A stretch of 64,000 nucleotides of DNA from Akkermansia muciniphila (GTDB lineage: Bacteria > Verrucomicrobiota > Verrucomicrobiia > Limisphaerales > UBA9464): assembly GCA_945861565.1 (NCBI GenBank), contig CAMAUY010000004.1, positions 1 to 64,000 of the forward strand, read 5' to 3'. Made by a program: the position numbers and the translations under genes. Numbering within the stretch: position 1 is the stretch's first letter; every line of letters begins with the position of its first letter. Shown in pieces: positions 1 through 55,769 of the stretch. Under the pieces are notes generated by a model. It saw only the letters and a list, made by a program, of their open reading frames with translations. It was not told where the DNA came from and did not search any database.

Positions 1-147
1 CAGATCGAGAATCCCGAATAAAGAAGGCCGCACCTCGGCGGGGGCGGCGAACCCAGCGTCGCCCTCGCCCATCTCGGAAATACCCCTCAATCACTGTGCG
101 GTTTTCAAATCGGCACTTTCACACGGTTTTCAGACCGTCCTCCGCAG
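1..147. other. Non-coding mosaic sequence at the window edge
   Basis: This stretch does not encode the expected upstream part of the adenylation domain that begins near 148. The frame is open back to a stop at 19-21, but the residues it would encode resemble no synthetase sequence. It holds two similar 14-15 base blocks, at 99-113 and 124-137, each starting cggttttca, with a period of about 25 bases. I see no gene here. It may be an intergenic repeat joined to a truncated gene. Confidence 0.5.
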
Positions 148-159
148 TCGCCTGCCAAG

Positions 160-1965
160 GTGCGCGGCTATCTGGAGCTGCCCGGGCATGGCCGCCTCAT
201 CAACGGATATGGCCCGACGGAGAACACCACGTTCACCTGCTGCGGCGGGTTCGATCGCGCCGAACAGATTGGTGAATCCGTGCCCATGGGGCGACCCATT
301 GCCGGAACGCAGGTTTACATTCTGGATCCGCAAGGACAGCCCGTCCCGATCGGCGTCCGGGGTGAAATCTATACGGGCGGCGACGGTTTGGCGCGCGGAT
401 ATCTCAACGCGCATGAACTGACATCCGAGCGGTTCATTCCAAATCCCTTCAACCCCGACTCGCGAGCGCGACTCTATAAGACCGGAGATATTGCTCGGTG
501 GCTGCCCGACGGACAAATTGAGTTCCTCGGCCGCGGAGACAATCAAATTAAGATCCGCGGTTACCGGATCGAGCCGGGCGAGATCGAGACCGCGTTGCGC
601 GTACAGTCTGAGGTGCGCGAGGTGGCAGTCCTTGTGCGCGAGGACACGCCGGGCGATCGGTTGCTGGTCGCGTATCTCGTCGCTCATGCCCAAGAGAAGC
701 CCGACGAGTCCACTCTCCGCACGCGGCTCGGGGAGATTCTTCCGGATTACATGCTGCCCAACGCGTTTGTGTGGCTTGATAAATTGCCGCTGACGCTCAA
801 CGGCAAGCTGGATCGCAAGGCGTTGCCAGCGCCGCAAGCAGGTGTCAAAGGCAGACCTGCTGAAACGGATCAACCCACGAATATCCTCGAACTGCAATTA
901 CTCCGGCTTTGGCACCGGCTCTTCCATCGGGAGGATATCGGACGGCACGATAATTTTTTCGACCTCGGGGGGCACTCGCTCCTGGCCGCGCGACTGGCGA
1001 CGGAAATCGACCAGCTTCTCGGATGCAAGCTGCCGATCGCCGCATTGTTCCAGTCGCCTACGGTCGAATCGTTGACCCGCCGGCTCACCGCGGAAAATTG
1101 GGTGCCTGCCTGGAAATCTCTGGTGCCGCTGCAACCGCTGGGGGCAAAACCGCCGTTCTTTCTCGTCCATGGCTGGGGCGGTGATGTCTTTGTTTTTCTG
1201 GGATTGGCCCGGCAACTGGCACCCGACCAACCGGCGTACGGCCTGCAGGCCGTTGGCCTCGACGGCAAATCGCCGCGACACACCACCCTCGAAAACATGG
1301 CGGCGCATTACGTTCAGGAAATCCGTTCGTTCCAACCCGAGGGACCGTATTACTTGGGAGGATACTCGATGGGAGGATTGATCGCCTTCGAAATGGCTCA
1401 ACAGCTCCATCGCCTTGGCCAACGAGTCGCCCTGCTCGCACTGTTCGACACCGTCCCGATCTGCACGATTCCGTGGACGGTTTATGGGCGAGTCATTCCC
1501 TCCTACCTCTGGGAGCGCTTGAGGATGCATCTGCGAAGGGGGTGGAGAATGCCGAATCGGGAGCGGCGCGATTACTTCCGAGGACGCTGGACTGCGCTCC
1601 AGCATTGGATGGTCCGAAACCGAGTTCGACTCCCGGTGACTCCGATCGCTACGCCGGGTGGAAGTCAGCCTCTGCAGCTGTCCGGATTTGCCGACTACTA
1701 CCTCGCCCTCGCGTCGGCCTATCGGCTCCATCGCTATCCGGGTTCGGCGGACGTTTTCGTCAGTGAACACACCAATCCCCACTGGGCATCGTCCTGGAAG
1801 CAGTTGGTCCGCGGCGGCGTCTCGTACCACCGGATTCCGGGCACACACCTAGAACTTCTCACACCGATGTCCCTACCCGTGCTGTCGATTGCTTTAAGAA
1901 CCGCCCTACACCGCGCCCAGAATGAGAACATTCACGTCAACCATGGCGCAACCAAAGTTCCGTGA
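160..1965 (+). CDS. NRPS fragment: C-terminal adenylation + carrier + thioesterase (5' truncated)
   Basis: This is the end of a nonribosomal peptide synthetase: the last part of an amino-acid adenylation domain, a peptidyl-carrier domain and a type I thioesterase that releases the peptide. Using the GTG at 160 as residue 1, it opens just before the A5 motif (NGYGPTE) and continues through YKTGD, GRGDNQIKIRGYRIE and NGKLDRK (A10 lysine). The carrier serine is S273 in DLGGHSLLA. The thioesterase has nucleophile S403 in GYSMGG and a late H563 in GTHLELL. The first two thirds of the adenylation domain (A1-A4) are missing, and homology starts abruptly near 148. No ribosome-binding site precedes the GTG, so this start is only a coordinate. 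It is unlikely to be functional as drawn. Cytoplasmic. Family assignment is secure; the substrate cannot be read. Confidence 0.85.
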   Translation: MRGYLELPGHGRLINGYGPTENTTFTCCGGFDRAEQIGESVPMGRPIAGTQVYILDPQGQPVPIGVRGEIYTGGDGLARGYLNAHELTSERFIPNPFNPDSRARLYKTGDIARWLPDGQIEFLGRGDNQIKIRGYRIEPGEIETALRVQSEVREVAVLVREDTPGDRLLVAYLVAHAQEKPDESTLRTRLGEILPDYMLPNAFVWLDKLPLTLNGKLDRKALPAPQAGVKGRPAETDQPTNILELQLLRLWHRLFHREDIGRHDNFFDLGGHSLLAARLATEIDQLLGCKLPIAALFQSPTVESLTRRLTAENWVPAWKSLVPLQPLGAKPPFFLVHGWGGDVFVFLGLARQLAPDQPAYGLQAVGLDGKSPRHTTLENMAAHYVQEIRSFQPEGPYYLGGYSMGGLIAFEMAQQLHRLGQRVALLALFDTVPICTIPWTVYGRVIPSYLWERLRMHLRRGWRMPNRERRDYFRGRWTALQHWMVRNRVRLPVTPIATPGGSQPLQLSGFADYYLALASAYRLHRYPGSADVFVSEHTNPHWASSWKQLVRGGVSYHRIPGTHLELLTPMSLPVLSIALRTALHRAQNENIHVNHGATKVP

Positions 1966-2006
1966 GATCTCGGGTGCGCGGCCAAATAACCTGATTTCTT
2001 GATGCC

Positions 2007-2405
2007 ATGAAGAATCGAGACATCCAGGAAGTTGCTGGCGTTACCGACGTCGAGCCGACACCGCCGTTGACCGACGGACTGTGCCTCCATCGTCGCTTCG
2101 AATCGTACGCCGCCCATCGTCCCGACGCGGTGGCAGTGGTCGAGGGGGACCTAGTCTTTTCGTATGCTCAAATCAACGCCCAGGCCAATCGCCTCGCCCG
2201 CCATTTGCTGAACTGCGGAGTAACAGCCGAAGTAACCGTGGGAAATCTGGGGAGCTTTGTCGCAGGGAGGCACCTTGGTGATCCTCCCCTCCGTCAAACG
2301 CCTCTCCGGCGGTTATTTTATAGACCTGCTGCGAAGGACTGGCGTCACGGTGTTGAGCCTCACGCCATCGGCATTCCGTCACCATTTGCTGGAAGGTGCA
2401 TTTGA
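2007..2405 (+). pseudogene. NRPS adenylation-domain N-terminal fragment
   Basis: The first roughly 77 residues are a clear start of an NRPS adenylation domain: LHRRFESYAAHRPDAVAVV followed by a FSYAQINAQANRLARHLL block (A1 region). The ATG at 2007 looks like a genuine gene start 41 bases after the preceding NRPS stop. Homology ends at about 2236, after AEVTVG, and the rest of the reading frame is out-of-frame sequence from the next fragment. About two hundred residues of the domain (A2-A3, including the P-loop-like SGSTG) are missing at the join. It could not make an active enzyme. Confidence 0.7.
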
Positions 2406-3012
2406 TGAAATGGGTACCCTGCCCTCTTTGCGCACCATTGCCTTAAGCGGCGAAGCCCCGGTGGCGACTGACCTGAAGAAATGGTTCGCCGGAAATCCCG
2501 ATGGCCGCCCGAAATTGATCAGCACCTACGCCATCACCGAGACCGGGGGGCAGGTCACCTGGCGGGTGCTGCTTCCCGGCGACTCCGATGCCGCCTGGAT
2601 GGGGCATGTTCTTGCCGACACGAGAATATACCTGTTGGACGAAAAATTGCGCCCGGTCCCGGTGGGAACGCCCGGGGAGATTTGCGTGGCCGGACCCGGC
2701 TTAGCTCGCGGCTACTTGAACCAACCGGATTTGACCCGGCAGAAGTTTGTCCACGATCCATTTGGCGATGGTAGCGAAGCTAAACTTTACCGCACCGGCG
2801 ATCGGGCACGCGTTCGCAAGGACGGCAAAATAGAAATCATCGGACGCACGGACGATCAAATTAAACTTGGCGGGCATCGCATTGAGTTGGGAGAAATTGA
2901 AGCGGTGCTCCGCGAGCACCCGGCGATCGCTGAGGCCGCGGTGGTCATGCGTCAGGACAATGGGACCAATCCCCGCCTCGTGGCCTATGTCGTCGCGCAG
3001 GGCGGCACTTGA
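2257..3012 (+). pseudogene. NRPS adenylation-domain C-terminal fragment
   Basis: This is the second half of an adenylation domain, in a different frame from the fragment before it. In this frame the conserved sequence actually begins at 2239 (WEIWGALSQGG), upstream of the TTG taken as start. It continues through the A5-like STYAITETGG, A6 GEICVAGPGLARGYLN, A7 LYRTGDRAR and A8 GRTDDQIKLGGHRIELGEIEAV, ending at LVAYVVAQGG before a stop at 3010. The A10 lysine motif and the carrier domain that should follow are absent. The next frame enters directly inside a condensation domain. It was probably once part of one gene with 2007-2236 and 3008-6283. Confidence 0.75.
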
Positions 3013-6000
3013 GGGAAAAAGTGCCGCTTATATTCTGTCCCAGGCCCTGCGTCTGCACGGCATTTTAAACCGGAGCGCCTTGGAGCGCGCGATCTATGAA
3101 ATCGTAACGCGACACGAGAGTCTGCGCACACACTTTATCGAAATCGAGGGTGAACCAACCCAGGTCATCGTTCCAGATTTAGCAGTGTTCCTGCCCTTGG
3201 AGGATTTGAGCGCGATGGACCGCGAAGCCCAGCAGGTTGCCGTTGCCACGACGGTGCGGAGAAACCATCAGGAACCGTTTGTTCTCAGCAAGGGCCCGCT
3301 GCTGCGTGCTCGCTTGATCAAGCTCGGCGATCGGGAGCACATTCTGCTGTTGGCCTTTCATCACATCATTACCGATGGGTGGTCCATGGCCGTGTTTCAT
3401 CGCGAGTTGACCTCGCTGTATGACGCATTCCGCGAGGGTTCGGAAAACCCGCTCCAGCCGCTGGCTGTGCAATATGCCGACTACACGCTCTGGCAGCGGG
3501 AGTGGCTACAGGGCGGCAACTTGAATCGACAGGTGGACTATTGGACCGCCAAACTCGCCGGCGCCCCTCCGGTCCTGACGCTTCCTCGTGACGAGCCACG
3601 CAGCACGCACCCGAGTCCTCCGGGGGGGCGTCGCACCCGGGTGCTGCCCGCGGACCTGACCCGGTCCCTAACCGCTCTTTGCCACCGCGAAGGGGCCACT
3701 CTGTTCATGGGATTGCTGGCCGCATTCAAGGTGTTGCTCGCCCGGTTGTCCAGACAGGATGACATCGTTATAGGGACTCCGATTGCGAATCGGAATCGTG
3801 TCGAACTCGAAGCATTGATTGGCTTTTTTATGGGCACGCTGGCCCTGCGCACAGATCTTTCGGCCCGGCCGACATTTCAGGAACTGCTCAGGCAGGTGCG
3901 CGCCACAGCACTCGAGGCCTTTGACAATCAGGACCTTCCTTTTGAGAGGCTCATTGAGGTGTTGCGGGTGGAGCGGAGCCTGGCGCATTCGCCGGTATTT
4001 CAGATCTTCTTCAATATGCTCAATCAGGAGGGGGCTACGCCAGCGTTGTCCGGGTTGGAAGTGGAACGTATCCCGCAGCCGGATGGGGAGTCAAAGTTCG
4101 ACATCACCCTTTACGCCGCCGAGGCGGGCGGAGAAATCCATCTCCACGCCGTCTACAATGTGGCGCTGTTCCATGGCGAAACCATCGAACGGATGCTGGA
4201 CCAATTGCACCGGCTTCTCGACCAGATCGTGGCCAATCCCGCGCAATCCATTCACACCTACTCGCTGATACGTCCCCGAGACGTGGCGATCCTGCCTGAT
4301 CCCACCCGCCCGCTGGCAAAGCGAGAGGAGATGGGGATGCATGACGGTTTCGTCATTCAGGCAAAGCGAGTGCCGCACCGCGTGGCGCTAACCGATGGGG
4401 TGACGGAATGGACTTATGCTGAAGTGGACGAGATCAGCAATCGCCTCGCCTGTCGTCTTCGACGGGAGGGATTGCAGGCGGGGGAAGTTGTGGCGGTGTA
4501 TGCCACCCGGTCGCCCGCACTTGTCTGGTCCCTCCTCGGAATCTTGAAGGCGGGCGGGGTCTTTATGATTCTGGACTCCGCCTACCCGGCCCGACGGCTG
4601 CGCCGTTATCTGGATCTAGCCGAACCGGTGGCATTGCTGAACCTTCTCCCGGCGGAAGGCCTGCCCGATGCCATTGCGGAATTCACGACCCCACGCGGAT
4701 TGCGTTTTCACACGGACATTCCGGCGGAAAAGTCCGCTGCACTAGCTCGATTTGAACCGTCGAAAGAGGACCACGATTTCCTGCCCTCCGTAGCCGGAGA
4801 TGCTCCGGCCTATATCGTATTTACTTCCGGATCAACCGGCGACCCCCTCGGCATCCTCGGCACTCACGCGCCCGTCAGTCACTTTCTGCGCTGGCATATT
4901 GACCGGTTTGATTTGAGGGATACCGATCGCTTCAGCCTCCTTTCCGGCCTGGGTCACGATCCACTCCTGCGTGATATATTCACGCCGCTCTCGTTGGGTG
5001 CATCCCTGCACCTTCCGCCGGCCGACGTAGGGGAATCGCCGGGCGCGCTCGCCCAATGGCTGGACAGGGAACAAATCAGCGTGTGTCACACAACTCCAGC
5101 CATGGTTGAGTACTTGGGAGATGCCGAACCGGGGCAGGAGCTCGACACGTTGCGCTGGATGTTCATTGGCGGGGATCGATTGAACGTTGCCACCGTCCGA
5201 AAGATTCGCGGTTGGAGTTCGTCGTGCGGATTGGTCAATTTCTACGGGACCACCGAGACGCCTCAAGCCATGGGTTTTCACGTCGTCACCGTGGAGGACA
5301 TTGCCCAACAGTCCCCTGCCGGAACAATACCCATCGGCCGGGAGATCGAGGGTGCCCAACTGCTGCTGCTCAACGCGGCCGACGGCGTCGCCGCAATTGG
5401 CGAGCTGGCGGAAATCTGCATCCGTACACCGCATCTAAGCAGAGAATATTTGACAACGGACGACCGAACCAAGGACCGCTTCCAAAGTAATCCGTTCCAC
5501 GCGGTCGCGGAGGATCGAATCTTTCGGACCGGGGACATGGGACGCTATCGGTCGGACGGCACCGTTCTGCTGGCCGGCCGGAAGGACGCCCAGGTCAAGA
5601 TCCGGGGATTTCGCGTGGAACTTGGCGAGATCGAGGCAGCGCTTCGCACTCTCCCCGAAGTGAAGAGCGCGGGGGTTTTCGGTCGCGAGAATGACTCCGG
5701 CATTGAAGATCTTGTGGCCTGCCTCGTCTCCCGGACGGAAGCGCCGACTCCGGCAAAACTTCGCGCGGAGTTGGCGAAACTCGTGCCGGACTACATGGTC
5801 CCATCCCGTTTCGTGTTGATTCCGGATCTGCCTTTGACCCCGAATGGCAAGCTGGACCGAAAGGCCCTGGAGAAACTGACGGGCGGGGAACTGGCATCCG
5901 ACCAGACCTATGTCGCTCCACAAAATGAGCGGGAGGAGGCGCTCGAGGAAATCTGGCAAACCCTGCTGCGACGGGAGCGAGTGGGCATCCATGACAACTT

Positions 6001-6283
6001 CTTCGATCTCGGTGGACACTCGCTCCTGGCCACGCAGGTGATTTCCCGGATGCGAGGTAAATTCGATGTCGAGATTCCCTTACGCGCTCTCTTTGAAAGT
6101 CCAACCATCGCCGCCCTCGGCACTTTACTTGAGGAAATGGTGACCGCCTCCGAGAGAGCGGAAGACGTCGAACACCTGCTGAGAGAATTGGAATCACTAA
6201 CCGAAGACGACGCGGCAACGCGACTAATTGCCGACGGCGATGGGGCCACGAAGGCTCCCGGCACCCCCGCCAGTTCCAGGTAA
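2867..6283 (+). CDS. NRPS module: condensation (N-truncated) + adenylation + carrier
   Basis: This is a nonribosomal peptide synthetase module that forms a peptide bond and activates one amino acid. The first 46 or so residues from the ATG at 2867 are frame-shifted adenylation sequence. The condensation domain starts near 3008 (LEGKSAAYILSQALRL) and lacks its extreme N-terminus. The condensation catalytic motif is HHIITDG, H165-G171. The adenylation domain has A3 YIVFTSGSTG from residue 649, A4-like GLGHDPLLRD with the Asp expected for alpha-amino acids, A5 NFYGTTE, FRTGDMGRY and the A10 NGKLDRK lysine. The carrier serine is S1052 in GGHSLLATQ. An acidic tail of about 65 residues follows and there is no thioesterase. 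The domains from 3008 on look intact, but no natural start codon or upstream linker is visible. Confidence 0.85.
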   Translation: MAGIALSWEKLKRCSASTRRSLRPRWSCVRTMGPIPASWPMSSRRAALEGKSAAYILSQALRLHGILNRSALERAIYEIVTRHESLRTHFIEIEGEPTQVIVPDLAVFLPLEDLSAMDREAQQVAVATTVRRNHQEPFVLSKGPLLRARLIKLGDREHILLLAFHHIITDGWSMAVFHRELTSLYDAFREGSENPLQPLAVQYADYTLWQREWLQGGNLNRQVDYWTAKLAGAPPVLTLPRDEPRSTHPSPPGGRRTRVLPADLTRSLTALCHREGATLFMGLLAAFKVLLARLSRQDDIVIGTPIANRNRVELEALIGFFMGTLALRTDLSARPTFQELLRQVRATALEAFDNQDLPFERLIEVLRVERSLAHSPVFQIFFNMLNQEGATPALSGLEVERIPQPDGESKFDITLYAAEAGGEIHLHAVYNVALFHGETIERMLDQLHRLLDQIVANPAQSIHTYSLIRPRDVAILPDPTRPLAKREEMGMHDGFVIQAKRVPHRVALTDGVTEWTYAEVDEISNRLACRLRREGLQAGEVVAVYATRSPALVWSLLGILKAGGVFMILDSAYPARRLRRYLDLAEPVALLNLLPAEGLPDAIAEFTTPRGLRFHTDIPAEKSAALARFEPSKEDHDFLPSVAGDAPAYIVFTSGSTGDPLGILGTHAPVSHFLRWHIDRFDLRDTDRFSLLSGLGHDPLLRDIFTPLSLGASLHLPPADVGESPGALAQWLDREQISVCHTTPAMVEYLGDAEPGQELDTLRWMFIGGDRLNVATVRKIRGWSSSCGLVNFYGTTETPQAMGFHVVTVEDIAQQSPAGTIPIGREIEGAQLLLLNAADGVAAIGELAEICIRTPHLSREYLTTDDRTKDRFQSNPFHAVAEDRIFRTGDMGRYRSDGTVLLAGRKDAQVKIRGFRVELGEIEAALRTLPEVKSAGVFGRENDSGIEDLVACLVSRTEAPTPAKLRAELAKLVPDYMVPSRFVLIPDLPLTPNGKLDRKALEKLTGGELASDQTYVAPQNEREEALEEIWQTLLRRERVGIHDNFFDLGGHSLLATQVISRMRGKFDVEIPLRALFESPTIAALGTLLEEMVTASERAEDVEHLLRELESLTEDDAATRLIADGDGATKAPGTPASSR

Positions 6284-6502
6284 GCTTGCGAAAAAACTCT
6301 GCCTACCCTCGGCGGAGCGATTGACACGTGTCCGGGTGGAAGGCTCGTGCGGTTGCGAGTGCGGCGCAACCGAAGCATCCAGCGGACGAATGCAGCCGAT
6401 CGACCAATCCCCCGAATAACCGAATAAATCCGTTGCTCCTTTGGCGAGAAACGGATCCTCTGCCGGTAGGTGAATCTGGAACAAATCGTGAGACCACCGC
6501 CC

Positions 6503-7360
6503 ATGCCCGCTGGGGGGCAAAAACTGGGCCCGCTTCCGCAGACCGAACAGCGGCCCCGGGTGATCGAAAGTGCCTTGTGCTTACCGCTCCCCCCTTACGG
6601 AGAGCGGCGACACGTTGCGGCATTCACGCTCATAGAATTGTTGGTCGTGATCGCGATCATAGCGATCCTAGCCTCCATGCTCCTGCCGACGCTTGCTGGC
6701 GCCAAGGAGCGCGGCCGGCGCACGTATTGTGTGAATAACCAGAAGCAATTGAGCTTGGCTTGTCATCTTTACGCCAATGATACCGGGGACAAGCTGCCCG
6801 TCGGCGTGCGTGACCCGGGGGGTGATTCCCATATTTTTTGGATTCCAACCAATACGTGGGTCGCTTTCACCAAGTTAGCCAATGTGAAATGCGTCGATTG
6901 TCCCAGTTTATGGCCATTCGAATATCCCTACGACCAAGTCCCAACCAAGGACGGGATCCGGTCCGATGGCACGAGCGCTCGGACCCGGTATGGTCTTGGT
7001 TATGTGATTGGCTACCACTACCACGGTGGCCACAAGATGCCCTGGGGAGCAAATAACAAATGGTTTTCACCCCAAAGGCTGACCGATGTGAGCACCAATG
7101 AAATCGTGCTTTTCTCCGACCTGAACCATGCCAGCGCAGAACAAGGCAGCTACACGCTGGTACCCCACGGAGCCCGGGGCCGGGTTGGGAGCGCTAGGAA
7201 TCCCTGGAACAAAGGCAGCGGCGGCGCGTCGCCGCAATCCTATGGCGCGCAAGGCGGCAACGTTGCTTTCCTGGATGGTTCGGTGCGCTGGAAGCCAATC
7301 CTACAGATGCGTACCTATGAAACATGGTCTGGAGGTCCCGGCTACCGGGGCACGTGGTGA
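6503..7360 (+). CDS. Type II secretion/pseudopilin-like protein (H-X9-DG type)
   Basis: This is a prepilin-type exported protein. It has the N-methylation/cleavage signature [23 protein letters not shown], with cleavage expected before the Phe and Glu at position 5, followed by a soluble domain ending in [13 protein letters not shown]. That ending matches the H-X9-DG tail typical of the many pseudopilins of Verrucomicrobia, Lentisphaerae and Planctomycetes. The frame is open from a GTG at 6470, but the ATG at 6503 gives a more natural leader. It stands alone on the plus strand between the NRPS remnants and an unknown membrane protein. No secretion ATPase or platform gene lies nearby. The role is likely surface or periplasmic; the precise function is unknown. 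Confidence 0.85.
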
Positions 7361-7443
7361 CCGCCAGCGTATGAAAGTGTTTCCCGATGAGTTCACGTGC
7401 GTAGGCAACGAGTACCGTCATCCGTGATGACTGCCGGTAGGGT

Positions 7444-8088
7444 ATGGGCAAGAACGGCATCCTCGCAATTATCGCCCTGCTAGCCCTGATCGCGGGCGCG
7501 ATACTGTTTCTTGTCAGGGAGTATCAGGGGGGACCGAAAATCAACTTGAGGCCTTACCAGGCGCTCGGTGCAGTCACCGCCGAGGAGACCGCCAAGTTGC
7601 TGGGTAATCGTGGCTCCATCGCCGTCATCGCCGAAGACTTCGGCCGATATAACATGGCCTGGGTTAAGGTACAGATGAGCGCGTTCCGATCGACTCTCCA
7701 AAAGAATGGCATCGCACTGACGAAAATTGAAAAGGTGATCGATCCCCAATTGAGCGAGGGTCAAGGTCAAACCTTCACCGCGGAGGTCCTCCTGCGGTTG
7801 ATTCAGAATAACCCCCAAGTAAGTGGCGTCGTTATTTTTGCGTCGTTGCCTGATTTCAGCGGACAAGACCTTGCCCAGCTCAAGCAGCACGGCAAGAGAA
7901 TCGTCGTCGTTTCCAAAACCACGGTTGGCTATCGGACCCTGTTCGAATCCGGAGCGATTCATCTGGCTATCGTCGCCCGGGCTGAGGCCCGTGTCCCCAG
8001 CGAGAAAAAACGGAGGACGCCCCGCGAGTTGTTCAACGATGAATATATCGTGGTTACGGGTGCGAACCTTACTGATCTGCCGCCGTAA
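7444..8088 (+). CDS. Membrane-anchored protein of unknown function with a substrate-binding-like fold
   Basis: The product has 214 residues. Residues 5-24 form one hydrophobic helix (ILAIIALLALIAGAILFLV) that should anchor it in the inner membrane. The remainder is soluble and probably periplasmic. The pattern IAVIAEDFG ... FRSTLQKNGI ... VSGVVIFASLPDFSGQDLAQL ... KRIVVVSK alternates strands and helices as in type 1 periplasmic sugar-binding proteins, but only part of such a domain would fit. I do not recognise the family. A ggtaggg sequence before the ATG could serve as ribosome-binding site. It follows the pseudopilin gene by 83 bases on the same strand, so the two may be co-transcribed. 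Confidence 0.7.
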   Translation: MGKNGILAIIALLALIAGAILFLVREYQGGPKINLRPYQALGAVTAEETAKLLGNRGSIAVIAEDFGRYNMAWVKVQMSAFRSTLQKNGIALTKIEKVIDPQLSEGQGQTFTAEVLLRLIQNNPQVSGVVIFASLPDFSGQDLAQLKQHGKRIVVVSKTTVGYRTLFESGAIHLAIVARAEARVPSEKKRRTPRELFNDEYIVVTGANLTDLPP

Positions 8089-8093
8089 CGCCT

Positions 8094-9539
8094 CTACCCC
8101 ACGATGGCTTTGATCACGTTGCCCGCCACGTCGGTCAGACGAAAATCCCGTCCGGAGTAGCGATAAGTCAAACGCTCGTGATCCAGTCCCAGCAGGTGCA
8201 GGATCGTTGCGTGCAGGTCGTGGACGTGGACCGGGTTCTCCACGGCCTGGAAACCGAACTCATCGGTGGTGCCATGTGCGATCCCGCCCTTTACGCCGCC
8301 GCCGGCCAACCACACGCTGAAGCCATAATGATTATGATCTCGACCACTGAGGGCGGGTAACTCGGCGACAGGGGTCCGACCGAACTCGCCGCTCCACAAG
8401 ACAAGCGTCTCGTCGAAGAGCCCCCGCTGCTTCAAATCGGCGAGAAACGCCGCGATGGGTTGGTCCCATTCACCGGCCAGTTTGCGGTGGTCTTTCTCCA
8501 GGTTTTCGTGGTTATCCCAAGGCTGGCCCGCACCGGACCATACCTGTACGAAGCGAACGCCTCGCTCGATCAGGCGGCGAGTGATCAGCAACTGGCGGCC
8601 GTGGGTGCCGCTACCGTAGGCCTCGCGAATCGCCTGGGGTTCCCGAGTGATGTCAAACGCATCCGTGGCCTCGGCCTGCATCCGGTAGGCCAGTTCAAAG
8701 GCGGCGATGCGGGCTTCCAAAGGCCCATCGTGTGCCCGCTGCGCCGTGTGCTCCTCGTTGATAGCCCGCACGAGATCCAGTTGCCTTCGCTGTTCAGCGT
8801 CGGACATCTGGCGGTTGTGGATGTTCGCGATGAGCTTCTCCACCTCCACATGTTGGGTATCAATGTAGGTGCCTTGGAAGGCACCCGGCAGAAACGCCGA
8901 GCGCCAGTTCTGCGTGGAAACAATCGGATACCCACCCGGGCACAGCGCCATGAACCCCGGCAGATTCCGGCTCTCGCTGCCCAGGCCATAGGTGATCCAT
9001 GCGCCCATGCTGGGCCGGGGCAGTCGCGAGTCGCCGCAATTCATGAGCATCAGCGACGGCTCGTGGTTCGGCACTTCGGCCTGCATCGAGCGGATCACCG
9101 CCAGGTCGTCGGCGTGCAACGCGGCGGTCCGCGCAAACAACTCGCTGACCTCCAGTCCGGACTGGCCGTAGCGTTGAAACTTGAACGGCGATCGCATGGC
9201 CGCGCCCGTCTTGCGCTCGGTCCGAAGATTATTCAGTGGCAACGGTTTTCCGTGATAACGATCCAGCGCTGGCTTGGGATCGAACGTGTCCACCTGCGAC
9301 GGTCCGCCATTCATGAACAGGTGCACCACTCGTCGTGCCCGCGGCGCAAAATGAGGCGCGTTTGGATCGAGTGGGGATAACCCAGGAATCCCGCCCGCCT
9401 GAACTCGATCCGCCAGCCAACCGCTGTCGTCGAGCAACGACGAGAGCGCCATCAACCCGAAGCCGGTCCCGCAGCGGGCGAGCAGCCGACGCCGTGAAAG
9501 AATTTCGTTCAACGGTGTTTTCGTCGAAAGGGTTTCCAT
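8094..9539 (-). CDS. DUF1501 family exported protein (sulfatase-like fold)
   Basis: This is a 481-residue DUF1501 protein, a family related to alkaline phosphatase/sulfatase folds and abundant in Planctomycetes and Verrucomicrobia. The N-terminus SRRRLLARCGTGFGLMAL resembles a Tat signal. Conserved blocks are HLFMNGGPSQVDTFDPKP, LAVIRSM, SGEFGRTP and the C-terminal VENPVHVHDLHATILHLLGLDHERLTYRYSGRDFRLTDV. It starts 8 bases after the end of the DUF1549/DUF1553 gene upstream on the minus strand, so the pair is one operon. The two families co-occur throughout these phyla, and a role in degrading complex substrates has been proposed. The substrate is unknown. Full length. Confidence 0.93.
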   Translation of the reverse strand: METLSTKTPLNEILSRRRLLARCGTGFGLMALSSLLDDSGWLADRVQAGGIPGLSPLDPNAPHFAPRARRVVHLFMNGGPSQVDTFDPKPALDRYHGKPLPLNNLRTERKTGAAMRSPFKFQRYGQSGLEVSELFARTAALHADDLAVIRSMQAEVPNHEPSLMLMNCGDSRLPRPSMGAWITYGLGSESRNLPGFMALCPGGYPIVSTQNWRSAFLPGAFQGTYIDTQHVEVEKLIANIHNRQMSDAEQRRQLDLVRAINEEHTAQRAHDGPLEARIAAFELAYRMQAEATDAFDITREPQAIREAYGSGTHGRQLLITRRLIERGVRFVQVWSGAGQPWDNHENLEKDHRKLAGEWDQPIAAFLADLKQRGLFDETLVLWSGEFGRTPVAELPALSGRDHNHYGFSVWLAGGGVKGGIAHGTTDEFGFQAVENPVHVHDLHATILHLLGLDHERLTYRYSGRDFRLTDVAGNVIKAIVG

Positions 9540-9547
9540 AGGATCAA

Positions 9548-12136
9548 CTAATCGACGAATACAAACTCGTTCGTCAGCAAAAGCGCCTGGATATACTGTT
9601 TCCAGGTTCGTTCATCGGGTGCCGCACCGAGAAACTCCGCCGCCCGTGCGTGGTCGGAGGTGGACGCGGGCCGCAGAAAAAGCACTGCGTGGAGCCGCTC
9701 GATTCGTGCGCGCAGCGACGGCAGTTCAGCGACGTCGCCACGACGCCCCAAGGCTGCCGCGCATTGGGCCACGAAATCATTGTTCATCAAATAGAGCGCC
9801 TGCGGCGCGACCGTTGTATCCATCCGCTGCGGGCAACTCGTCGAGGGGCTCGGAAAGTCGAACGTAGTCCGCACCGGAGGCACGTCCATGCGATTGACAA
9901 ACGTGTAGACCGTGCGTCGCGGCACAGCAGCATCCGTGGGCGCACCGCCGGCCTTCGGGTCTAGCAGTCCCGCCACGAAGAGAAAGGCGTCCCGCTGGGT
10001 TTCGAAATCATGCCGGCGGCGATTCATGCGAGAGAGTAATCGATTCTCAGGGTCCTCTGTCACCGCACGGTCCTCGGGGCGGAGGGCGACAGCGTCACCG
10101 TTTATCCGGCTCATAACGTTCGGGGTCCTCTGGCTTGCCCGCTGATAGGTCGCGCTGTTCAAAATCAACCGGTGCAAGCACTTCACCCGCCAACCGCTGC
10201 GAATGAACTCACCGGACAGCCAGTCGAGTAGGGCGGCGTGCGACGGGGGCTCGCTGCGCAATCCGAAATCGCTCGGAGTCGTCACCAGCCCGGCACCGAA
10301 GTGATGGCCCCAAACGCGGTTCACGAACACTCGGGCGGCCAGCGGTTGATTGGTGCTGACGATAGCGCTGGCCATTTCGAGCCGTCCGCTCCCCTGTTGA
10401 AAGGCGTGGCCGGTCGGGTCCAGGAAACCCGGGAATCGGCGCGCCACCGACGCGCCCTGCCGATTGGGATTGCCGCGCAGAAAGATACGCGGCTCATAGG
10501 CCACCGGAGTATCCTGCAAGACCATCGCCCGCGCGGGAGCCTCCGGGGCATTCATCAGCCATTGCTCCAGGCTCGTGAGCAATTTCTGGAATTCGCCCTG
10601 GCTGGCTCGGTCCGGCAGCAACGAAAGAAAGCCCCAGTCCAGCTGTGCCGGCACGTCGGGCGGTGCCTCCGGACCATGGAGAATACGCCACAAATCCTGG
10701 TCCGCGGCCTCCGGCAACCGCGCCGGGGACGCGACGGTGCCCCGCACGAGGTTTGTCCGGTTTTCCTGCCATTGCTGTTCCGCGGCATCGAGCACCACGG
10801 CATAGCGAGCCGCCACGTCTTTCATGGTGTGCGGCGGAGACGTCGCGAATGCGGCCGCCACCCGAGGATTCAGCCGCTGTCTGCTGGCACCCATTAACAT
10901 CGAGTGCATGCCTATGGCCTTCGCGGAGAAATCGGCGTCATCGAGATCGGCAAAGCGAATCCACGGCTCCCAGATGGGATCCGTCGGGCTCGCTCGCTCG
11001 ATCAACGAGCGCCATCGGGAGATGACCACCGGATTGATGTCATCGGGGTCGGCAATGAGCATGAAACTCTCGGTTGCGGGTTGATGGCGTTGGGCATGAA
11101 CGGCCATCAGTGAATCTGCGATCCGGGCCCGGGATTTTTTGACGATTTCGTCATGCTTCCGCTCCACAAAATCGCGCAACCGCCGTTCCCGGGCGATCAA
11201 TTCAATTTCGAATCCCTCGGAGATCTCGGTCAGCGCGCGGACTTCGATCACCGGCGGCACCAAAGGCTCGCTCGCGCTGCGGAACACACCATAGAGCCCA
11301 TAATAATCGGCCGTGGTGATCGGATCGAACTTGTGATCATGACATCGCGCGCACCCGACGGTTAGGCCGAGCAGGCCGCGAAATGTGACATCGATCCGAT
11401 CGTCCAGGATGTCATGGAGGTTGTTGGAAAAATGATCCCCAACCGTCACAAATCCAAGAGCCGCCAATGCCCGGGGATCACCCTGGAGATCCAGTTGATC
11501 GGCGGCGAGTTGTTCCAGTATGAAGCGGTCGAACGGCTTATCCTCGTTGAAGGCGCGGATCACGTAATCGCGATACGTCCAGGCCCACGGATACGTTTTC
11601 TCCTCAAAAAACACATACCCCTTGTTGTCCGCATAGCGGGCCACGTCGAGCCAATGCCGGCCCCATCGCTCCCCGTAATGGGGCGACGCCAGCAGGCGAT
11701 CCACCACGCGTGCGAAGGCGCTCGGCGAATCGTCGGTAAGAAAGGAATCCACTTCCTCCGGAGTCGGTGGCAGGCCGATGAGATCAAACGTGGCGCGCCG
11801 CAGCAGCGTCCGTTTGTCGGCGAGGGGCGAGGGTTGCAGCCGGCTCTGCTCCAGTTTTTCCAGGATGAATGAGTCGACGGGTGTCGCCGCCCGCTCCGGT
11901 TGGCTCACCCTGGGCGGTCGAAGGGCGGGAATCGGTTGGAAAGCCCAGTGAGTGCGAACCCGCTTCAGGTCCGGGCGAACGGCTTCACTTCCCGCCGCGG
12001 AGACGTGGAAAGTCCCGAGCTCAAACCAGGCAATGGCCAGCATAACCAGCCCCGCGGTTAAAGTGAACCCGGACGGGATCGCCTCATGCCACGCCAAACC
12101 CGGTAGGCGGACGAAAGGGCGGGAGTGGGCGATCAT
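9548..12136 (-). CDS. DUF1549/DUF1553 (PSCyt2/PSD1) cytochrome-like exported protein
   Basis: The product has 862 residues and a hydrophobic N-terminal segment near residues 23-40. The DUF1549 (PSCyt2) domain runs from about 85 to 280, with FDLIGLPPTPEEVDSFL, YGERWGRHWLDVARYAD and a CxxCH haem-type motif at 262-266 (CARCHDHKFDP). The DUF1553 (PSD1) domain fills the C-terminal third, with NQPLAARVFVNRVWGHHFGAGLV, DFGLRSEPPSH, ENRLLSRMNRRRH and PQALYLMNNDFV. The usual N-terminal PSCyt1 cytochrome domain is absent. It is the first gene of a two-gene operon with the DUF1501 gene 8 bases downstream. Likely periplasmic or surface. Haem binding is inferred from CxxCH only. Confidence 0.92.
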   Translation of the reverse strand: MIAHSRPFVRLPGLAWHEAIPSGFTLTAGLVMLAIAWFELGTFHVSAAGSEAVRPDLKRVRTHWAFQPIPALRPPRVSQPERAATPVDSFILEKLEQSRLQPSPLADKRTLLRRATFDLIGLPPTPEEVDSFLTDDSPSAFARVVDRLLASPHYGERWGRHWLDVARYADNKGYVFFEEKTYPWAWTYRDYVIRAFNEDKPFDRFILEQLAADQLDLQGDPRALAALGFVTVGDHFSNNLHDILDDRIDVTFRGLLGLTVGCARCHDHKFDPITTADYYGLYGVFRSASEPLVPPVIEVRALTEISEGFEIELIARERRLRDFVERKHDEIVKKSRARIADSLMAVHAQRHQPATESFMLIADPDDINPVVISRWRSLIERASPTDPIWEPWIRFADLDDADFSAKAIGMHSMLMGASRQRLNPRVAAAFATSPPHTMKDVAARYAVVLDAAEQQWQENRTNLVRGTVASPARLPEAADQDLWRILHGPEAPPDVPAQLDWGFLSLLPDRASQGEFQKLLTSLEQWLMNAPEAPARAMVLQDTPVAYEPRIFLRGNPNRQGASVARRFPGFLDPTGHAFQQGSGRLEMASAIVSTNQPLAARVFVNRVWGHHFGAGLVTTPSDFGLRSEPPSHAALLDWLSGEFIRSGWRVKCLHRLILNSATYQRASQRTPNVMSRINGDAVALRPEDRAVTEDPENRLLSRMNRRRHDFETQRDAFLFVAGLLDPKAGGAPTDAAVPRRTVYTFVNRMDVPPVRTTFDFPSPSTSCPQRMDTTVAPQALYLMNNDFVAQCAAALGRRGDVAELPSLRARIERLHAVLFLRPASTSDHARAAEFLGAAPDERTWKQYIQALLLTNEFVFVD

Positions 12137-12213
12137 GATATTTCACCGCGAGTCTGGGCTGGACGCAGACGTCAATGAGGTCTTCAAGGAAGGTGGCGGC
12201 CAAGGAGGGAACA

Positions 12214-12420
12214 TTACGATCCGATAGATTCCATCTGCATCCGGCCCAGTTTTTCAGCGGAGACTCTCTTGGAGAGATACAACATTTCGATTCCGACCAC
12301 TTTTCCCTCGGCGTTGTTATCCAGAATTACACCTGGCGAAATTTCCTCGCTCTCGGCGGCAGGTGTATCGTCAAGATCCAGATATAGGGCATCCGCGTCG
12401 CGATCAATGGTGAGCTTCAT
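12214..12420 (-). CDS. DUF2283 family small protein
   Basis: This 68-residue protein matches DUF2283 across its whole length: MKLTIDRDADALYLDLDD, then EEISPGVILDNNAEGKVVGIEMLYLSKRV. The family is small, cytoplasmic and often found beside mobile or toxin-antitoxin-like genes; its function is not established. Its start codon lies inside the end of the ribbon-helix-helix remnant just upstream (17-base overlap), so the two may be translationally coupled. The stop is about 80 bases beyond the start of the DUF1553 gene. Confidence 0.85.
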   Translation of the reverse strand: MKLTIDRDADALYLDLDDTPAAESEEISPGVILDNNAEGKVVGIEMLYLSKRVSAEKLGRMQMESIGS

Positions 12421-12526
12421 AATTGGCCTTTCTGACTTCCGCTTGGGAAACTTGCCAGAGCGCGGCGAGACTCCGGATGCGTTTGGACGTGGCGTCGTCC
12501 AAGGCGAAGGTACTGCGATGGATCAT
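12404..12526 (-). pseudogene. Truncated ribbon-helix-helix antitoxin-like reading frame
   Basis: This 40-codon frame starts at the ATG at 12526-12524 and stops at 12406-12404. It begins MIHRSTFALDDATSKRIR and continues SLAALWQVSQAEV, the pattern of a short N-terminal strand followed by helix 1 and the start of helix 2 of ribbon-helix-helix repressors. Homology stops at SQAEV, where a normal protein continues with further helix residues. The last 10 codons read into the DUF2283 gene. It is probably the 5' half of an antitoxin gene whose 3' half was lost when it was joined to DUF2283. Too short to be sure. Confidence 0.5.
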
Positions 12527-12913
12527 GGTTGCCACACCATCACGCGTACCATCATCCAGAGGTGTCGTCAAGATGCGCGTCTGCGCTACAGATGCGTGTC
12601 GACGCGTAAGGAGTCCCAGTCGGATTCATCGGGGCCATCAACCATTCCATACGGCGGATTCTATTTGCGACATCTGCTGCAGCTCAATCGTCGTCACCCC
12701 AGCACTCTACTTCCTTCACGAGGCAACGCAACGCTGATGTGGCGAACGACCCAAGCTCCCGTGTACTCCGAACTTGTTGGAGACGGTAGCGGACGCCGCG
12801 CAGCGGCCCTATCCGCCCGCTGGACGCGGGCGGGGTTGTCGCAGCGCGACAACCTCTACCAACAACTTCGGGATGCGCCCTTCAGCGAGTGCCGAATGCC
12901 CGCACGCCCTCCC
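12527..12913. other. Intergenic region with tandem hairpins
   Basis: There is no convincing gene between the end of gnd and the small DUF2283 locus. The region holds an imperfect hairpin around 12578-12597 (gcgtctg with cagatgc across a 5-base loop) and the block of three adjoining hairpins listed separately. Any of these could act as the gnd transcript end, but no T-run follows them. Confidence 0.5.
12795..12854. repeat. Three tandem hairpins (REP/BIME-like)
   Basis: Three palindromes lie side by side: gccgc-gca-gcggc at 12795-12807, ccgcccgc-tggac-gcgggcgg at 12813-12833 and ggttgtcg-cagcg-cgacaacc at 12834-12854. The last two are perfect 8-bp stems with 5-base loops and no base between them. 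The arrangement is that of a REP-like extragenic element, or of a structured RNA 3' end. No protein is encoded. Confidence 0.6.
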
Positions 12914-14368
12914 TCACGCATTGTATGTGGAACTGGACACTCGCCCTCCGTGACCCGTCCAGTTGGTGTGGAAAAACTGGCCGCGTGGCTGGTCGATCCG
13001 CTCGTAAGTATGAGCACCGAAATAGTCCCGCTGCGCCTGGAGCAGATTTGCCGGAAGCCGGGCGGTGCGATACCCATCGAAAAAGCTGAGAGCGGTGCTG
13101 AACGCAGGAACCGGAATCCCTTTTTTCGCGGCCATCGAGACCACATTCCGCCATCCCTTTTGGCATTTCTTGATCTCGCCCCGGAAATAATCGTCGAGCA
13201 ACAGGTTCGCGAGCTTGGGGTTTCCGTCGTAAGCCTCCTTGATCCGAATCAGGAAACGGGACCGGATGATGCATCCACCGCGCCACATCAGCGCGATGCC
13301 GCCGTAATTCAAATTCCATCGATACTCGGCCGCCGCCGCCCGCAGCAGCATATAGCCTTGCGCATAACTGACGATCTTCGACGCATACAGAGCGTATCGG
13401 ATGTCTTCGACAAATTTGGCACGGTCCCCACGAATTGCCGGCCGCGGACCCTTGAGCTTGCGGGCGGCCTTGACCCGCTCCTCCTTCATCGAACTGACGC
13501 AGCGCGCAAAAACCGCCTCGGCGATGAGTGTCACCGGTTGGGCCAACTCGGCTGCATTCACCACCGTCCACTTGCCCGTCCCCTTCTGGCCTGCCGCATC
13601 GAGAATCTTGTCCACCAGGGGTTGGCCGTCGGCGTCCTTAAACTTGAGAATGTCCCGCGTGATCTCGATGAGGAAGCTGTCGAGCTCCCCTTCGTTCCAG
13701 GCGGAAAAGACGGCGTGCATTTCATCGGCTGTCATCCCGAGTCCGTCCCGCATCAAGTGATAGGCCTCGCCGATCAACTGCATGTCGCCGTACTCGATTC
13801 CATTGTGAATCATCTTCACATAGTGGCCTGCGCCTCCCTCTCCAACCCAGTCGCAGCAGGGGGCACCGCCTTCGACCTTGGCGGCGATTCCCTGAAAGAT
13901 CGGCTTCACATGAGGCCACGCCGCGGAACTTCCACCCGGCATGATACTCGGTCCCCGCCGGGCACCTTCCTCGCCTCCCGAAACCCCGGTTCCTATAAAA
14001 TGGATTCCTCGCGCCGCCAACGATGCCACGCGCCGGTTGGTGTCAGTGAACAGGGAATTGCCGCCGTCAATCACGATGTCGCCCGCTTCCAAGTGGGGCA
14101 GCAATTGATCGATAAATTCATCCACCGGGGCCCCCGCCTTGACCATCAACATCACTCGGCGCGGTTTCTTCAAAGCCGCGACGAGCTCCGGAATGGAATG
14201 GGCACCGACAACGCGTGAGCCTTTTGCCTCGTTGGCGAGGAATTCATCCACTTTGGAGACCGTCCGGTTATAGGCCACGACCGTGAAGCCGTGATCGTTC
14301 ATATTGAGGATCAGGTTCTGGCCCATTACGGCCAGACCAATCAGTGCGATATCGCCCTGGGGTTGCAT
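12914..14368 (-). CDS. gnd: 6-phosphogluconate dehydrogenase, decarboxylating
   Basis: This cytoplasmic enzyme of the oxidative pentose phosphate pathway converts 6-phosphogluconate plus NADP+ to ribulose 5-phosphate, CO2 and NADPH. The product has 484 residues, the normal length for the long (E. coli-like) form. Visible features are the Rossmann start ALIGLAVMGQNLILNMNDHGF with YNRT (NADP preference), the DGGNSLFTDTNRR loop, GTGVSGGEEGARRGPSIMPGG, the catalytic-lysine region GHYVKMIHNGIEYGDMQLI, and a complete all-helical C-terminal domain ending HTNWTGHGGRVSSSTYNA. The start is ATG at 14368. It is the last gene after the ABC exporter operon, 117 bases downstream, and probably has its own promoter. 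Confidence 0.97.
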   Translation of the reverse strand: MQPQGDIALIGLAVMGQNLILNMNDHGFTVVAYNRTVSKVDEFLANEAKGSRVVGAHSIPELVAALKKPRRVMLMVKAGAPVDEFIDQLLPHLEAGDIVIDGGNSLFTDTNRRVASLAARGIHFIGTGVSGGEEGARRGPSIMPGGSSAAWPHVKPIFQGIAAKVEGGAPCCDWVGEGGAGHYVKMIHNGIEYGDMQLIGEAYHLMRDGLGMTADEMHAVFSAWNEGELDSFLIEITRDILKFKDADGQPLVDKILDAAGQKGTGKWTVVNAAELAQPVTLIAEAVFARCVSSMKEERVKAARKLKGPRPAIRGDRAKFVEDIRYALYASKIVSYAQGYMLLRAAAAEYRWNLNYGGIALMWRGGCIIRSRFLIRIKEAYDGNPKLANLLLDDYFRGEIKKCQKGWRNVVSMAAKKGIPVPAFSTALSFFDGYRTARLPANLLQAQRDYFGAHTYERIDQPRGQFFHTNWTGHGGRVSSSTYNA

Positions 14369-14485
14369 GCTTGAAGAAAATGTTAATGCGTTGCCTGTAC
14401 CGGAACCTGTAATGCGAACTTCGAATTCCAGGAGCCGCGACGGTACCCGGGGCGGCCAAACAGAAAAGCAGGATTTTGCGACCCG

Positions 14486-15736
14486 CTACTCGTATCGCAG
14501 GGATTCGATCGGATCCAGGTTGGCTGCCTTCCATGCGGGGTAGGTGCCGAAAACGACTCCTACGAGTGAACAGACGGCCAGACCGATCAACGCCCAATCC
14601 CAAGGGATCACCGGCGGAGTTTTCAGCGCCATTGCCCCCAGGTTCCCAGCGGCGACGCCGAGGAGCACTCCCGCGATCCCGCCGATCTCGCAGAGCACGA
14701 TCGCTTCGAGAATAAACTGGGTCATAATGTTCCGCTTCTTCGCCCCCACCGCGCGCCGGATACCGATCTCGCGCGTTCGCTCCGTCACGCTGACCAGCAT
14801 AATGTTCATGATTCCAATGCCCGCGGCCAGCAGGGCGATGCTTGCAATCACACCCGCAACCGTTCGAATCACGAGTGTGAGAGAGCGAAACTGACTGATG
14901 ATCGAATCGTTCGAGACAATTTCGAAGTCGTCCTTCTGACCCGGCGGCACTTTGCGCAATGTCCGCAGGACGGCCCGCGCCTCCTCCACCGTGTCGTCGA
15001 AGTGTGCCTGATCCCGCGCTTGAATCTGGATCTGAATCGATCGCTCCCTCCCATACCGGTCCAGGGCGGTGGAGATCGGAATCGCCATGAACGAATCCAT
15101 GCTGCGGCCAAACATCGAACCTTTGGCCTCGAGGACTCCCACGACGTTATATCCGATGCCCCGATACCGGACCGATTCGCCCAGGGGACTGCCGAAGGGG
15201 AACAACTTCTTCGCCAAATCCGCCCCCAGCACGCAGAACAAACGGGAACTGTCCACGTCACTCTCCGAAAACGCCCGGCCTTCGGTGACCGCAAGGTTGC
15301 GGGTTTCAAACGCCTCCGACGACAATCCCTGAAGGGGGATATCCGGATTCGTCTTGGCGAATCGGGAGGATGCCTCGCCCACGTCGAGATCGGCGCTGAC
15401 GCCGACCGCCTGGGCGAGTTTGAGCCGTTCCGACAACTGCCGTGCCACGGGGAGATAGAACCGGCGACGCCGCCAGTATTCCTGCTCGGTCTCGGAGTCG
15501 CCATCCACCTGAATCGCCGGGAACCGCTGCACCTGGAATGTATGGGATCCGAGTTGAGCCAACTGCTTCTCCAGATTCGACTGCAATGCGCGCAGGGCGG
15601 TCATCACCAGAATGATGGAAAACACTCCAATCAGAACTCCCAGCAGCGTGAGGGCCGAGCGCAGTTTGTGCGCGCCGACCGCTTGCAATGCCATCCCAAC
15701 GCTTTCTCGAAATTCGGTTGTGAGAGGCAGATTCAT
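14486..15736 (-). CDS. ABC transporter permease, MacB-like (FtsX domain)
   Basis: This is a 416-residue inner-membrane permease with the MacB fold: a cytoplasmic N-terminus, TM1 (residues about 22-44, TLLGVLIGVFSIILVMTA), a large periplasmic MacB_PCD domain, and three C-terminal helices. The conserved cytoplasmic loop [32 protein letters not shown] sits between TM2 and TM3. The C-terminus YPAWKAANLDPIESLRYE is typical. The longer frame to 15925 overlaps the preceding gene out of homology, so the ATG at 15736 (MNLPLTTEF) is chosen. It is the fourth gene of the adaptor-ATPase-permease-permease operon. Confidence 0.93.
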   Translation of the reverse strand: MNLPLTTEFRESVGMALQAVGAHKLRSALTLLGVLIGVFSIILVMTALRALQSNLEKQLAQLGSHTFQVQRFPAIQVDGDSETEQEYWRRRRFYLPVARQLSERLKLAQAVGVSADLDVGEASSRFAKTNPDIPLQGLSSEAFETRNLAVTEGRAFSESDVDSSRLFCVLGADLAKKLFPFGSPLGESVRYRGIGYNVVGVLEAKGSMFGRSMDSFMAIPISTALDRYGRERSIQIQIQARDQAHFDDTVEEARAVLRTLRKVPPGQKDDFEIVSNDSIISQFRSLTLVIRTVAGVIASIALLAAGIGIMNIMLVSVTERTREIGIRRAVGAKKRNIMTQFILEAIVLCEIGGIAGVLLGVAAGNLGAMALKTPPVIPWDWALIGLAVCSLVGVVFGTYPAWKAANLDPIESLRYE

Positions 15737-15759
15737 GGGACGATTGCGGGACGCGCGGG

Positions 15760-16983
15760 CTATTCCGCGCGCAGAGCCTCCACCGGATCCAGGTTCGATG
15801 CCCGCCAAGCGGGAATGAATCCGGCAATGACGCCGGTCATCACGGAGACCAATAGGGCGATCGCCACCAACCACCACGACATCTGGGCCGCCATGAACCG
15901 ATTGATGACCAGTGTCAGCGGCCACGCCACGAGGATGCCGAGGATTCCGGCGAAAAGCGTTATGAGGGCCGCTTCCACCAAGAATTGAAGGAGAATGGAG
16001 CGGCGCTTGGCACCGATCGCCTTGCGAATGCCGATCTCCTTGGTTCGCTCCGCGACGCTGACGAACATGATGTTCATAATCCCAATGCCTCCCACGAAGA
16101 GCGATAAGCTCGTGATGAAAAGGCCGACGGCTGCAATCGTGCCGCCAACCGCGCGGAAGAAGTTCAAAAACGCCTCCTGTCGGTTGATCGCAAAATCGTC
16201 CGGCAAGCCGGGCTCGATCCGACGCAGCTTCCGCATAATGCCGCGGAGTTCCTCCTCGGCATCGTCAAGCCGGGTCACGTCTTTCACCTTAACAATGATC
16301 TGGTAATCGGGCCGTTCCTGAAAGTCGCCTTCAAATCGTGTGACCGGGATCACAATCTGGTTGTCCATGTTGAACCCGGTGAAAAATGTGCCCATTTTAT
16401 CGATGACGCCCACCACCTCGTACTGGATCTCGTTCACTTTCACCCGATGTCCCAGGGGCGATTGATTGGGAAAAAACCGTTCCGCCAGATAATTGCCAAG
16501 CACACAGACATTGCGCGCCGAACTGATCTCCGCCGGACTGAACCACCGCCCCTTGGCGATGGAAAGCCCTCGGACATCAATGCTGCGATCCGTGTTGCCC
16601 ATAATCCACACGCCGCGCGCCTTCTTTTTGTCGTAAGTAACCGTTCCTCCGAAGTTCGACTCGACACTCACGGCTGCCGCCAGCGTGGCCATCCGCTCCA
16701 CGTCACGGGCATTCTGCATGGTCATCGGCCGGCGGTTTCGGACCACACGCCAGTCGTCGTTACTAAACCAGGCAAACCTCTGGATGAAAAGCGTGTCGGA
16801 TCCCAGCGTGGCAATACTCTTCTGAAACGCGTTGTTGAGTCCGTTGATCGCCGTGCCCATCAACGTCACGGTGACGATTCCGATCACGACTCCGAGCGTG
16901 GTCAGTCCCGAGCGCAACACATTGGCACGAAGAGCCGCCACCGCGATCAGAAACGTTTCCCGAAGCTCCGACGTCGTAATCAT
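15760..16983 (-). CDS. ABC transporter permease, MacB-like (FtsX domain)
   Basis: This 407-residue inner-membrane permease is homologous to its downstream neighbour. It has TM1 near residues 27-45 ([17 protein letters not shown]), a periplasmic domain with the [20 protein letters not shown] block, then the [31 protein letters not shown] loop and a C-terminus ending [18 protein letters not shown]. Its start ATG overlaps the end of the ATPase gene by 4 bases, a sign of translational coupling. Two separate permease genes suggest a heterodimeric membrane pair rather than the MacB homodimer. This is an inference from gene order. Confidence 0.93.
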
Positions 16984-17717
16984 GCGATCGGTGGCGGCGA
17001 GATTCCGTCCCCCACGGTCGGGGGCGTTCGGTACCGAATATTGAGTTCATCCACCGCGATTAATCCGTCCCGGAGCCGGATGACCCGGCGGGCGTGCAGA
17101 GCGACCTCTTCCTCGTGCGTCACCACGATGATGGTGTTGCCCTTACGCGAAAGCTGATCGAATAGCGCCAAAATCTCCTCGCCCGTCCGTGAGTCGAGAT
17201 TCCCTGTCGGTTCATCCGCCAGGACGATGCTGGGGTTGTTGACCAACGCGCGGGCGATCGCCACGCGCTGGCGTTGTCCGCCCGAGAGTTCATTGGGCCG
17301 ATGGTGCATGCGATTCTCGAGACCGACATGCGCCAGAGCCGATCGCGCCATCTCCCGACGCTCGCCCTTCGCCACCCCGGAATAGATCAGCGGCAATTCG
17401 ACATTATGCAAGGCATCGGATCGTGGCAGCAGATTAAAGCTCTGGAATACGAATCCGATCTCTCGATTCCGAATCTCCGCCAACTGATTGTCATTCAGCG
17501 TCGCCACGTTCTTGTCGTTCAACAGGAACTCTCCCTCCGACGGCGTGTCGAGACAGCCCAGGAGATTCATCAGCGTCGATTTGCCCGAGCCGCTCGGCCC
17601 CATGATTGCGACATACTCGCCCTTGCCAATATCCAGCGATACACCCCGCAACGCATGGACCACCTCCGAGCCCATCACGTAACGTCGGCAGAGATTGCGG
17701 ATGCGGATCAGGGACAT
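16980..17717 (-). CDS. ABC transporter ATP-binding protein, MacB/LolD type
   Basis: This 245-residue cytoplasmic ATPase energises the two permeases beside it. Walker A is GPSGSGKST (40-48), the Q-loop FQSFNLLPR starts near 91, the signature LSGGQRQR begins at 144, Walker B plus catalytic Glu is SIVLADEP (163-170), the D-loop is GNLDS, and the switch His is H201 in VVTHEE. The length and the [22 protein letters not shown] region match the MacB/LolD class that drives transport from the periplasm or inner membrane outward. It lies 42 bases after the adaptor gene and overlaps the next permease by 4 bases. Confidence 0.95.
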
Positions 17718-17759
17718 GTCAGGTTCTGGGGTTGCTGTGCGACGGACCCGGCCGGCCGC

Positions 17760-19121: not shown

Positions 19122-19215
19122 GATGCTGAAGTGCAAGACACTCAAGGGATACGATTGTTTCAAAGAAAGCGTATCATCGCCAGCTCACAATCGAGCGTCA
19201 GGCCAGTTCCGTTGT

Positions 19216-20463: not shown

Positions 20464-20692
20464 GATAAAGAACTATTCCACCCCGACCTTTGAAGCGAGC
20501 AAAAGACGCGCCCCGCTGAATTTGTCCGAACGCCGCAAGCCCCAGTCCCAACAACCGTTGCGCGTCCTCTTGCCCTCGCCGCTGTAGGTCGTGGGCCGTC
20601 CTATTCCCAACGTCTACAGCCATCTCTTGCGGTCCCTGTCGTCGGCGCAAATGGCCTAGCCTTGATTACCACGCCCCATGACATGGCAAACC

Positions 20693-20800
20693 GCGCCCGC
20701 GTATCCAATTCGAACTTGTCGAGCCATCCCCAATTCTCAGAGACACAATTGGCGATACCTGCAACCAATTTTCAAAATTCCGGGCTTGACCCCTTTATGG
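20693..20800 (-). repeat. Dispersed repeat class 1, copy A
   Basis: Read on the minus strand this begins aaaggggtcaagcccggaat and ends with ...ggatacgcgggcgc. It shares the cgccaattgtgtctc core and both ends with the copy at 24247-24363, and partly with 22200-22275. The outer end reads RPRIQF on the plus strand, like the first residues of REP-associated Y1 transposases, so these may be internally deleted relics of such an element (inference). Confidence 0.65.
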
Positions 20801-55753: not shown

Positions 55754-55769
55754 GCACTCAGGTCCTTCC

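Follow-up and report, generated by a model that had tools for sequence, protein, structure and literature searches.

Two out-of-frame joins in an NRPS gene near a dispersed repeat, the first of them probably a short-homology deletion

Genes and features at the contig start

The window, that is, the whole stretch of DNA analysed, comprises bases 1 to 64,000 of contig C4, which belongs to an assembly of 5.9 Mb in 262 contigs, and does not contain any N. It begins at the contig end, with the end of a dispersed repeat (positions 1 to 146) that directly abuts the coding sequence of an NRPS gene, here termed gene 1. Another 15 contigs of the same genome bear bases 1-146 at most 2 bases from one of their ends, and all 16 repeat-bearing sequences differ in the flank that follows base 146. 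Since the repeat end abuts the gene at this boundary (146/147), which was absent from an earlier note made from the letters of the window, gene 1 is cut at position 147. Contig C162 carries 54 of the 146 repeat bases away from the contig end, and the same repeat end is also found at the end of contig C132 of a congener, G002, beside another cut A domain. The repeat is probably an insertion element, of which only the outer 146 bases lie on this contig; an RNA element at the contig start was considered and rejected, since positions 1-8100 gave no match in Rfam. Far downstream, ca. 66 bases at 61835-61901 recur at 91-97% on many G002 contigs and are probably another repeat end.

What is left of gene 1 (147-1965, + strand) is its 3' part, consisting of the end of an A domain (Pfam AMP-binding positions 312-384, followed by AMP-binding_C), a PCP (PP-binding) and a thioesterase (Thioesterase). 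This remnant is 83% identical to a region of G002 contig C32 that makes up the last part of an open frame of 2180 aa. The start of gene 1 is carried by contig C77. Gene 2 follows on the same strand. Its start and the first part of its A domain (2007-2238, frame 3, MKNRDIQEV...LLNCGVTAEVT) match positions 1-50 of PF00501, and from base 2239 the reading continues in frame 1 as WEIWGALSQGG..., matching PF00501 positions 222-384 and the first 36 of the 76 positions of AMP-binding_C, so that neither frame covers the 384 positions of the profile. The remainder of this A domain and the start of its C-terminal subdomain thus occupy 2245-3008 (+ strand), in the other frame. An out-of-frame join within an NRPS A domain, with this downstream reading one frame over, had been proposed in the earlier note, and both the join and the loss of frame are direct observations. 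At the join (join 1, 2239-2244, + strand, 2.2 kb from the contig end) the bases TGGGAA are common to both sides, as had also been claimed. The codons directly before it in the right-hand frame are TAA (2233-2235) and CCG; because of this stop, the right-hand reading cannot extend further to the left.

The amount of missing sequence can be estimated from homologues. The point of join 1 is read through in one open frame by 69 homologous loci, out of 78 tried (nine were dropped because they lacked a long open frame upstream or because their match began elsewhere than at the join), and in these the V of VG(I/L)C and the W of WEIW are spaced 130-162 residues apart, with a median of 150, the right anchor being poorly placed in a few of them. 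About 150 residues are therefore absent, the previous figure of some 200 having been too large; they correspond to the A2-A4 part of the A domain, in which the ATP-binding motif A3 lies. Taking the two frames into account, a deletion at this point would be of ca. 450 bases, with a length of 3n+2. In 54 of the 69 homologues WEIW is preceded by V or I, and the congener diverges from the window after GTGGGAA, so that the shared stretch amounts to 6-7 bases, a microhomology that rests on the congener and the homologues rather than on an intact sequence from this species. When 200,000 random deletions of 300-499 bases were simulated within gene 2, at least 6 shared bases were obtained in 0.2% of the trials, indicating that the matching bases at join 1, with parental sequences inferred from the congener and the homologues, go beyond chance.

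A second out-of-frame join, also absent from the earlier note, is located at about 3008. Here (join 2, 3008-3012, + strand) the C-terminal part of the A domain is followed, out of frame, by a condensation domain, with an in-frame TGA at 3010-3012. The condensation domain runs in frame 2, starting at Pfam position 20, and is part of a C-A-PCP module (3009-6283, + strand) that is open until its stop. G002 parts from the window at this join just after GGCGGCAC, so the shared stretch is small, shorter than the 6-7 bases of join 1. Within the three pieces of gene 2 in the window there are neither point stops nor small frameshifts; it is the two out-of-frame joins that, in comparison with intact relatives, break the frame of gene 2 in the way expected of a pseudogene.

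The locus in a congener and other NRPS genes

Among 96 genomes searched with the window DNA, for each of which three first-look candidates were scored, only G002, from the same genus, matched above 73% over more than 200 bases. Its counterpart of the locus, in unchanged order, is spread over contigs C32 and C38 (the latter CAMDJH010000038.1, MAG isolate ZH-13nov19-140), which overlap in that both end in the same exact 149 bases. Window positions 147-2249 match C32 at 83%, and positions 2112-2249, 2514-3008 and 6069-12043 match C38 at 81, 93 and 96.5%, respectively, all in order. In both genomes a thioesterase-ended NRPS, a broken NRPS and a downstream DUF1559-type gene follow each other in the same order, but the breakpoints are different, and G002 lacks the C-A module of the window (3009-6068, for which no match of at least 78% identity was found on C38) and retains A2-A3 sequence that is missing from the window. 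In G002, the A domain continues across the position equivalent to base 2244 as ordinary A-domain sequence up to A3, from which there is an out-of-frame jump to A5. The G002 gene also has an extra G (+1) near the gene start and a shift by one in the frame of the PCP, and it contains the start of what we take to be a methyltransferase insert, followed in frame by the C-terminal part of an A domain. No lesion of gene 2 is common to both genomes. Like the join itself, the common order of the pieces and the different lesions of the congener are directly observed.

A search of the genome of the window with positions 2000-3012 returned only the query region, the next best match having an E value of 0.06, and a search with the congener sequence of the lost stretches gave a best E value of 0.013 beyond the aligned parts. 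These negative results indicate that the lost pieces are not assembled elsewhere in this genome, bearing in mind that a bin can miss contigs. Besides the G002 contig, a search of genome contigs rendered only homologues with 38-47% identity, and a plasmid search with positions 1950-6300 rendered only distant NRPS matches, the best of them with 68% identity over 16% of the query.

Both assemblies contain several further NRPS genes with large breaks. In the assembly of the window (G000), a C domain on C81 lacks ca. 70 residues, in frame, at a place where G002 contig C68 is whole, and on C14 (L043:4523-7093) an 856-aa open frame leads, in frame, from a C domain and the first A-domain residues into the last part of a PCP and a thioesterase, without the A domain and most of the PCP. 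In G002, C32 carries half a C domain, in frame, and C149 has one frame-broken A domain as well as another one ending in a stop near the contig end. Excluding repeat insertions, four lesions can be read as in frame (C81, C14, C32 and the methyltransferase) and six as out of frame (C4 has two, C38 three, and C149 one or two), a split that is near chance and does not separate biology from artefact. By way of control, orthologous NRPS stretches on C104 and C324 can be aligned without gaps for 5499 bases at 90.5% identity, and the window includes two intact open frames of 3287 and 4000 aa. These two giant frames (32242-54104, - strand) adjoin each other with an overlap of 4 bases and encode Ig-like, carboxypeptidase-regulatory, TSP3 and RHS-type domains; most of the region 42000-59100 has no DNA match in G002 or G001. 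Contigs C101 (end of L146) and C92 (start of L143) of G000 share an exact end overlap of 139 bases within an NRPS gene and are probably neighbours.

The divergence between the window and G002 is uneven along the locus. Values of dS are 0.50 for gene 1, 0.72 and 0.41 for two pieces on the left of gene 2 that span only 32 and 38 codons, respectively, 0.18 for 2518-3007, 0.08 for 6071-6283, and 0.07-0.17 for seven downstream genes. Positions 6069-20797, where synteny on C38 stops, are 96.5% identical to G002 in two blocks, the other stretches compared being 83-91% identical, and may represent a recently exchanged tract; on this basis, the dS step near join 1 could reflect a boundary of sequence exchanged between the two species. 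In four of the five NRPS pieces dN/dS is 0.17-0.25, and it is 0.45 in the remaining one, of 38 codons. These ratios are well away from the value near 1 of relaxed selection, which implies that selection acted during most of the divergence and that the breaks, if real, must be recent; as regards a pseudogene, they fit only a recent loss.

Origin of the first join

We consider that join 1 is a real short-homology deletion, affecting an NRPS gene that broke recently, with a probability of roughly 0.7. According to this interpretation, ca. 450 bases (3n+2) of an NRPS gene with two modules would have been lost, within its first A domain, by a deletion formed between two short matching stretches, TGGGAA, through replication slippage or end joining. 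The frame would thereby have been destroyed, with the protein stopping soon after join 1, and joins 1 and 2 would together make gene 2 a recent pseudogene, within a locus that may be breaking down separately in two related species and whose preceding gene may have received a repeat-element insertion. That the join is carried in the DNA of living cells, and that it arose by slippage or end joining, is what we infer from the fact that both halves lie in order in one G002 gene, the presence of other lesions in that gene, the lack of a second copy in the own genome, and an overlap of 6-7 bases that is far below the word length of an assembler (29-149 in PMC9166423). Several points count against a deletion, namely that there is one assembly per species, that dN/dS is low, that the pieces of gene 2 bear no minor lesions besides the joins, and that NRPS breaks recur in both assemblies; these breaks could have a shared technical cause.

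The main rival, which we regard as unlikely, is an assembly or library artefact inside this one gene, in which case the A domain would be whole in the cells and ca. 450 bases would be skipped by the contig. The metagenome-type assembly in 262 contigs and the start of the window at a contig end are consistent with it, as are the recurrent NRPS breaks, the low dN/dS and the fact that the G002 contig break falls exactly here, which shows branching in the G002 assembly. However, a word-based join would need more than the 6-7 bases of overlap found here: MEGAHIT with words from 29 to 149 is given in one paper that includes Lake Zurich samples (PMC9166423), and metaSPAdes with words of 21-127 for Lake Zurich sets in another (PMC6461901), even if the words behind this genome may be different. 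The artefact would also have to be reconciled with a missing part that is not found elsewhere in the assembly, with a window free of N, and with other NRPS and giant genes that assemble without gaps.

A chimera or recombination between different NRPS modules or genomes, in which the left part would come from another copy than the right one, is very unlikely. The stepwise decrease of dS against G002, from 0.41-0.72 to the left of the join to 0.18 and then 0.08, points to different histories, but it can equally be the edge of an exchanged tract, and G002 has both halves side by side in a single gene. The earlier note had left open a deletion or a chimera between similar modules; the former is favoured, and the latter is rejected, since the own-genome searches rendered no other source and the overlap is of 6-7 bases. 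A working arrangement, either by programmed frameshifting or with a split A domain made as two proteins, can be practically discarded: both frames are open for some distance and the pieces are under purifying selection, but the congener breaks at other positions and the ca. 150 residues from A2 to A4 are not encoded elsewhere in the assembly, so that rejoining the pieces would not give a whole domain.

Precedents and significance of NRPS gene decay

If join 1 is a deletion, it would be a case of ordinary NRPS gene decay, for which there is a precedent in the mcy genes of Planktothrix. Partial deletions, such as those of 1665 bp in mcyD and 1924 bp in mcyHA, and IS insertions are described in the mcy NRPS/PKS cluster of Planktothrix from Alpine lakes, where the inactivated forms occur in natural lake populations beside intact copies (PMC4766695). 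The likeness is that large genes for peptide synthesis are inactivated by internal deletions and by hits of insertion elements. The mcy lesions, however, were shown by PCR from single filaments of cyanobacteria (PMC4766695), whereas our locus is from a non-cyanobacterial lineage, with one assembly per species. NRPS and related clusters of Planktothrix have also been found to be rearranged by IS elements (PMC9366434), a system that resembles ours in the mobile elements and in the partial loss of clusters within a genus, but that is based on complete genomes and for which no raised IS frequency near clusters in general is reported.

It could further be, though this is decidedly doubtful, that, in this genus, the NRPS genes act as a hot spot where internal deletions keep arising in a lineage-specific way. 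If so, parts of A, C, MT and PCP domains would have been lost in two species, some of them in frame and readable, so that shortened assembly lines would be continually made and tested, and intact and deleted forms would be found together in one lake population.

As regards annotation, the gene calls at 2007-6283 should be taken as fragments of one broken NRPS and not as an assembly line from which a product can be predicted. The loss of the same gene by different breaks in two related species would offer a modest case, open to checking, of the decay of secondary-metabolite genes in natural populations.
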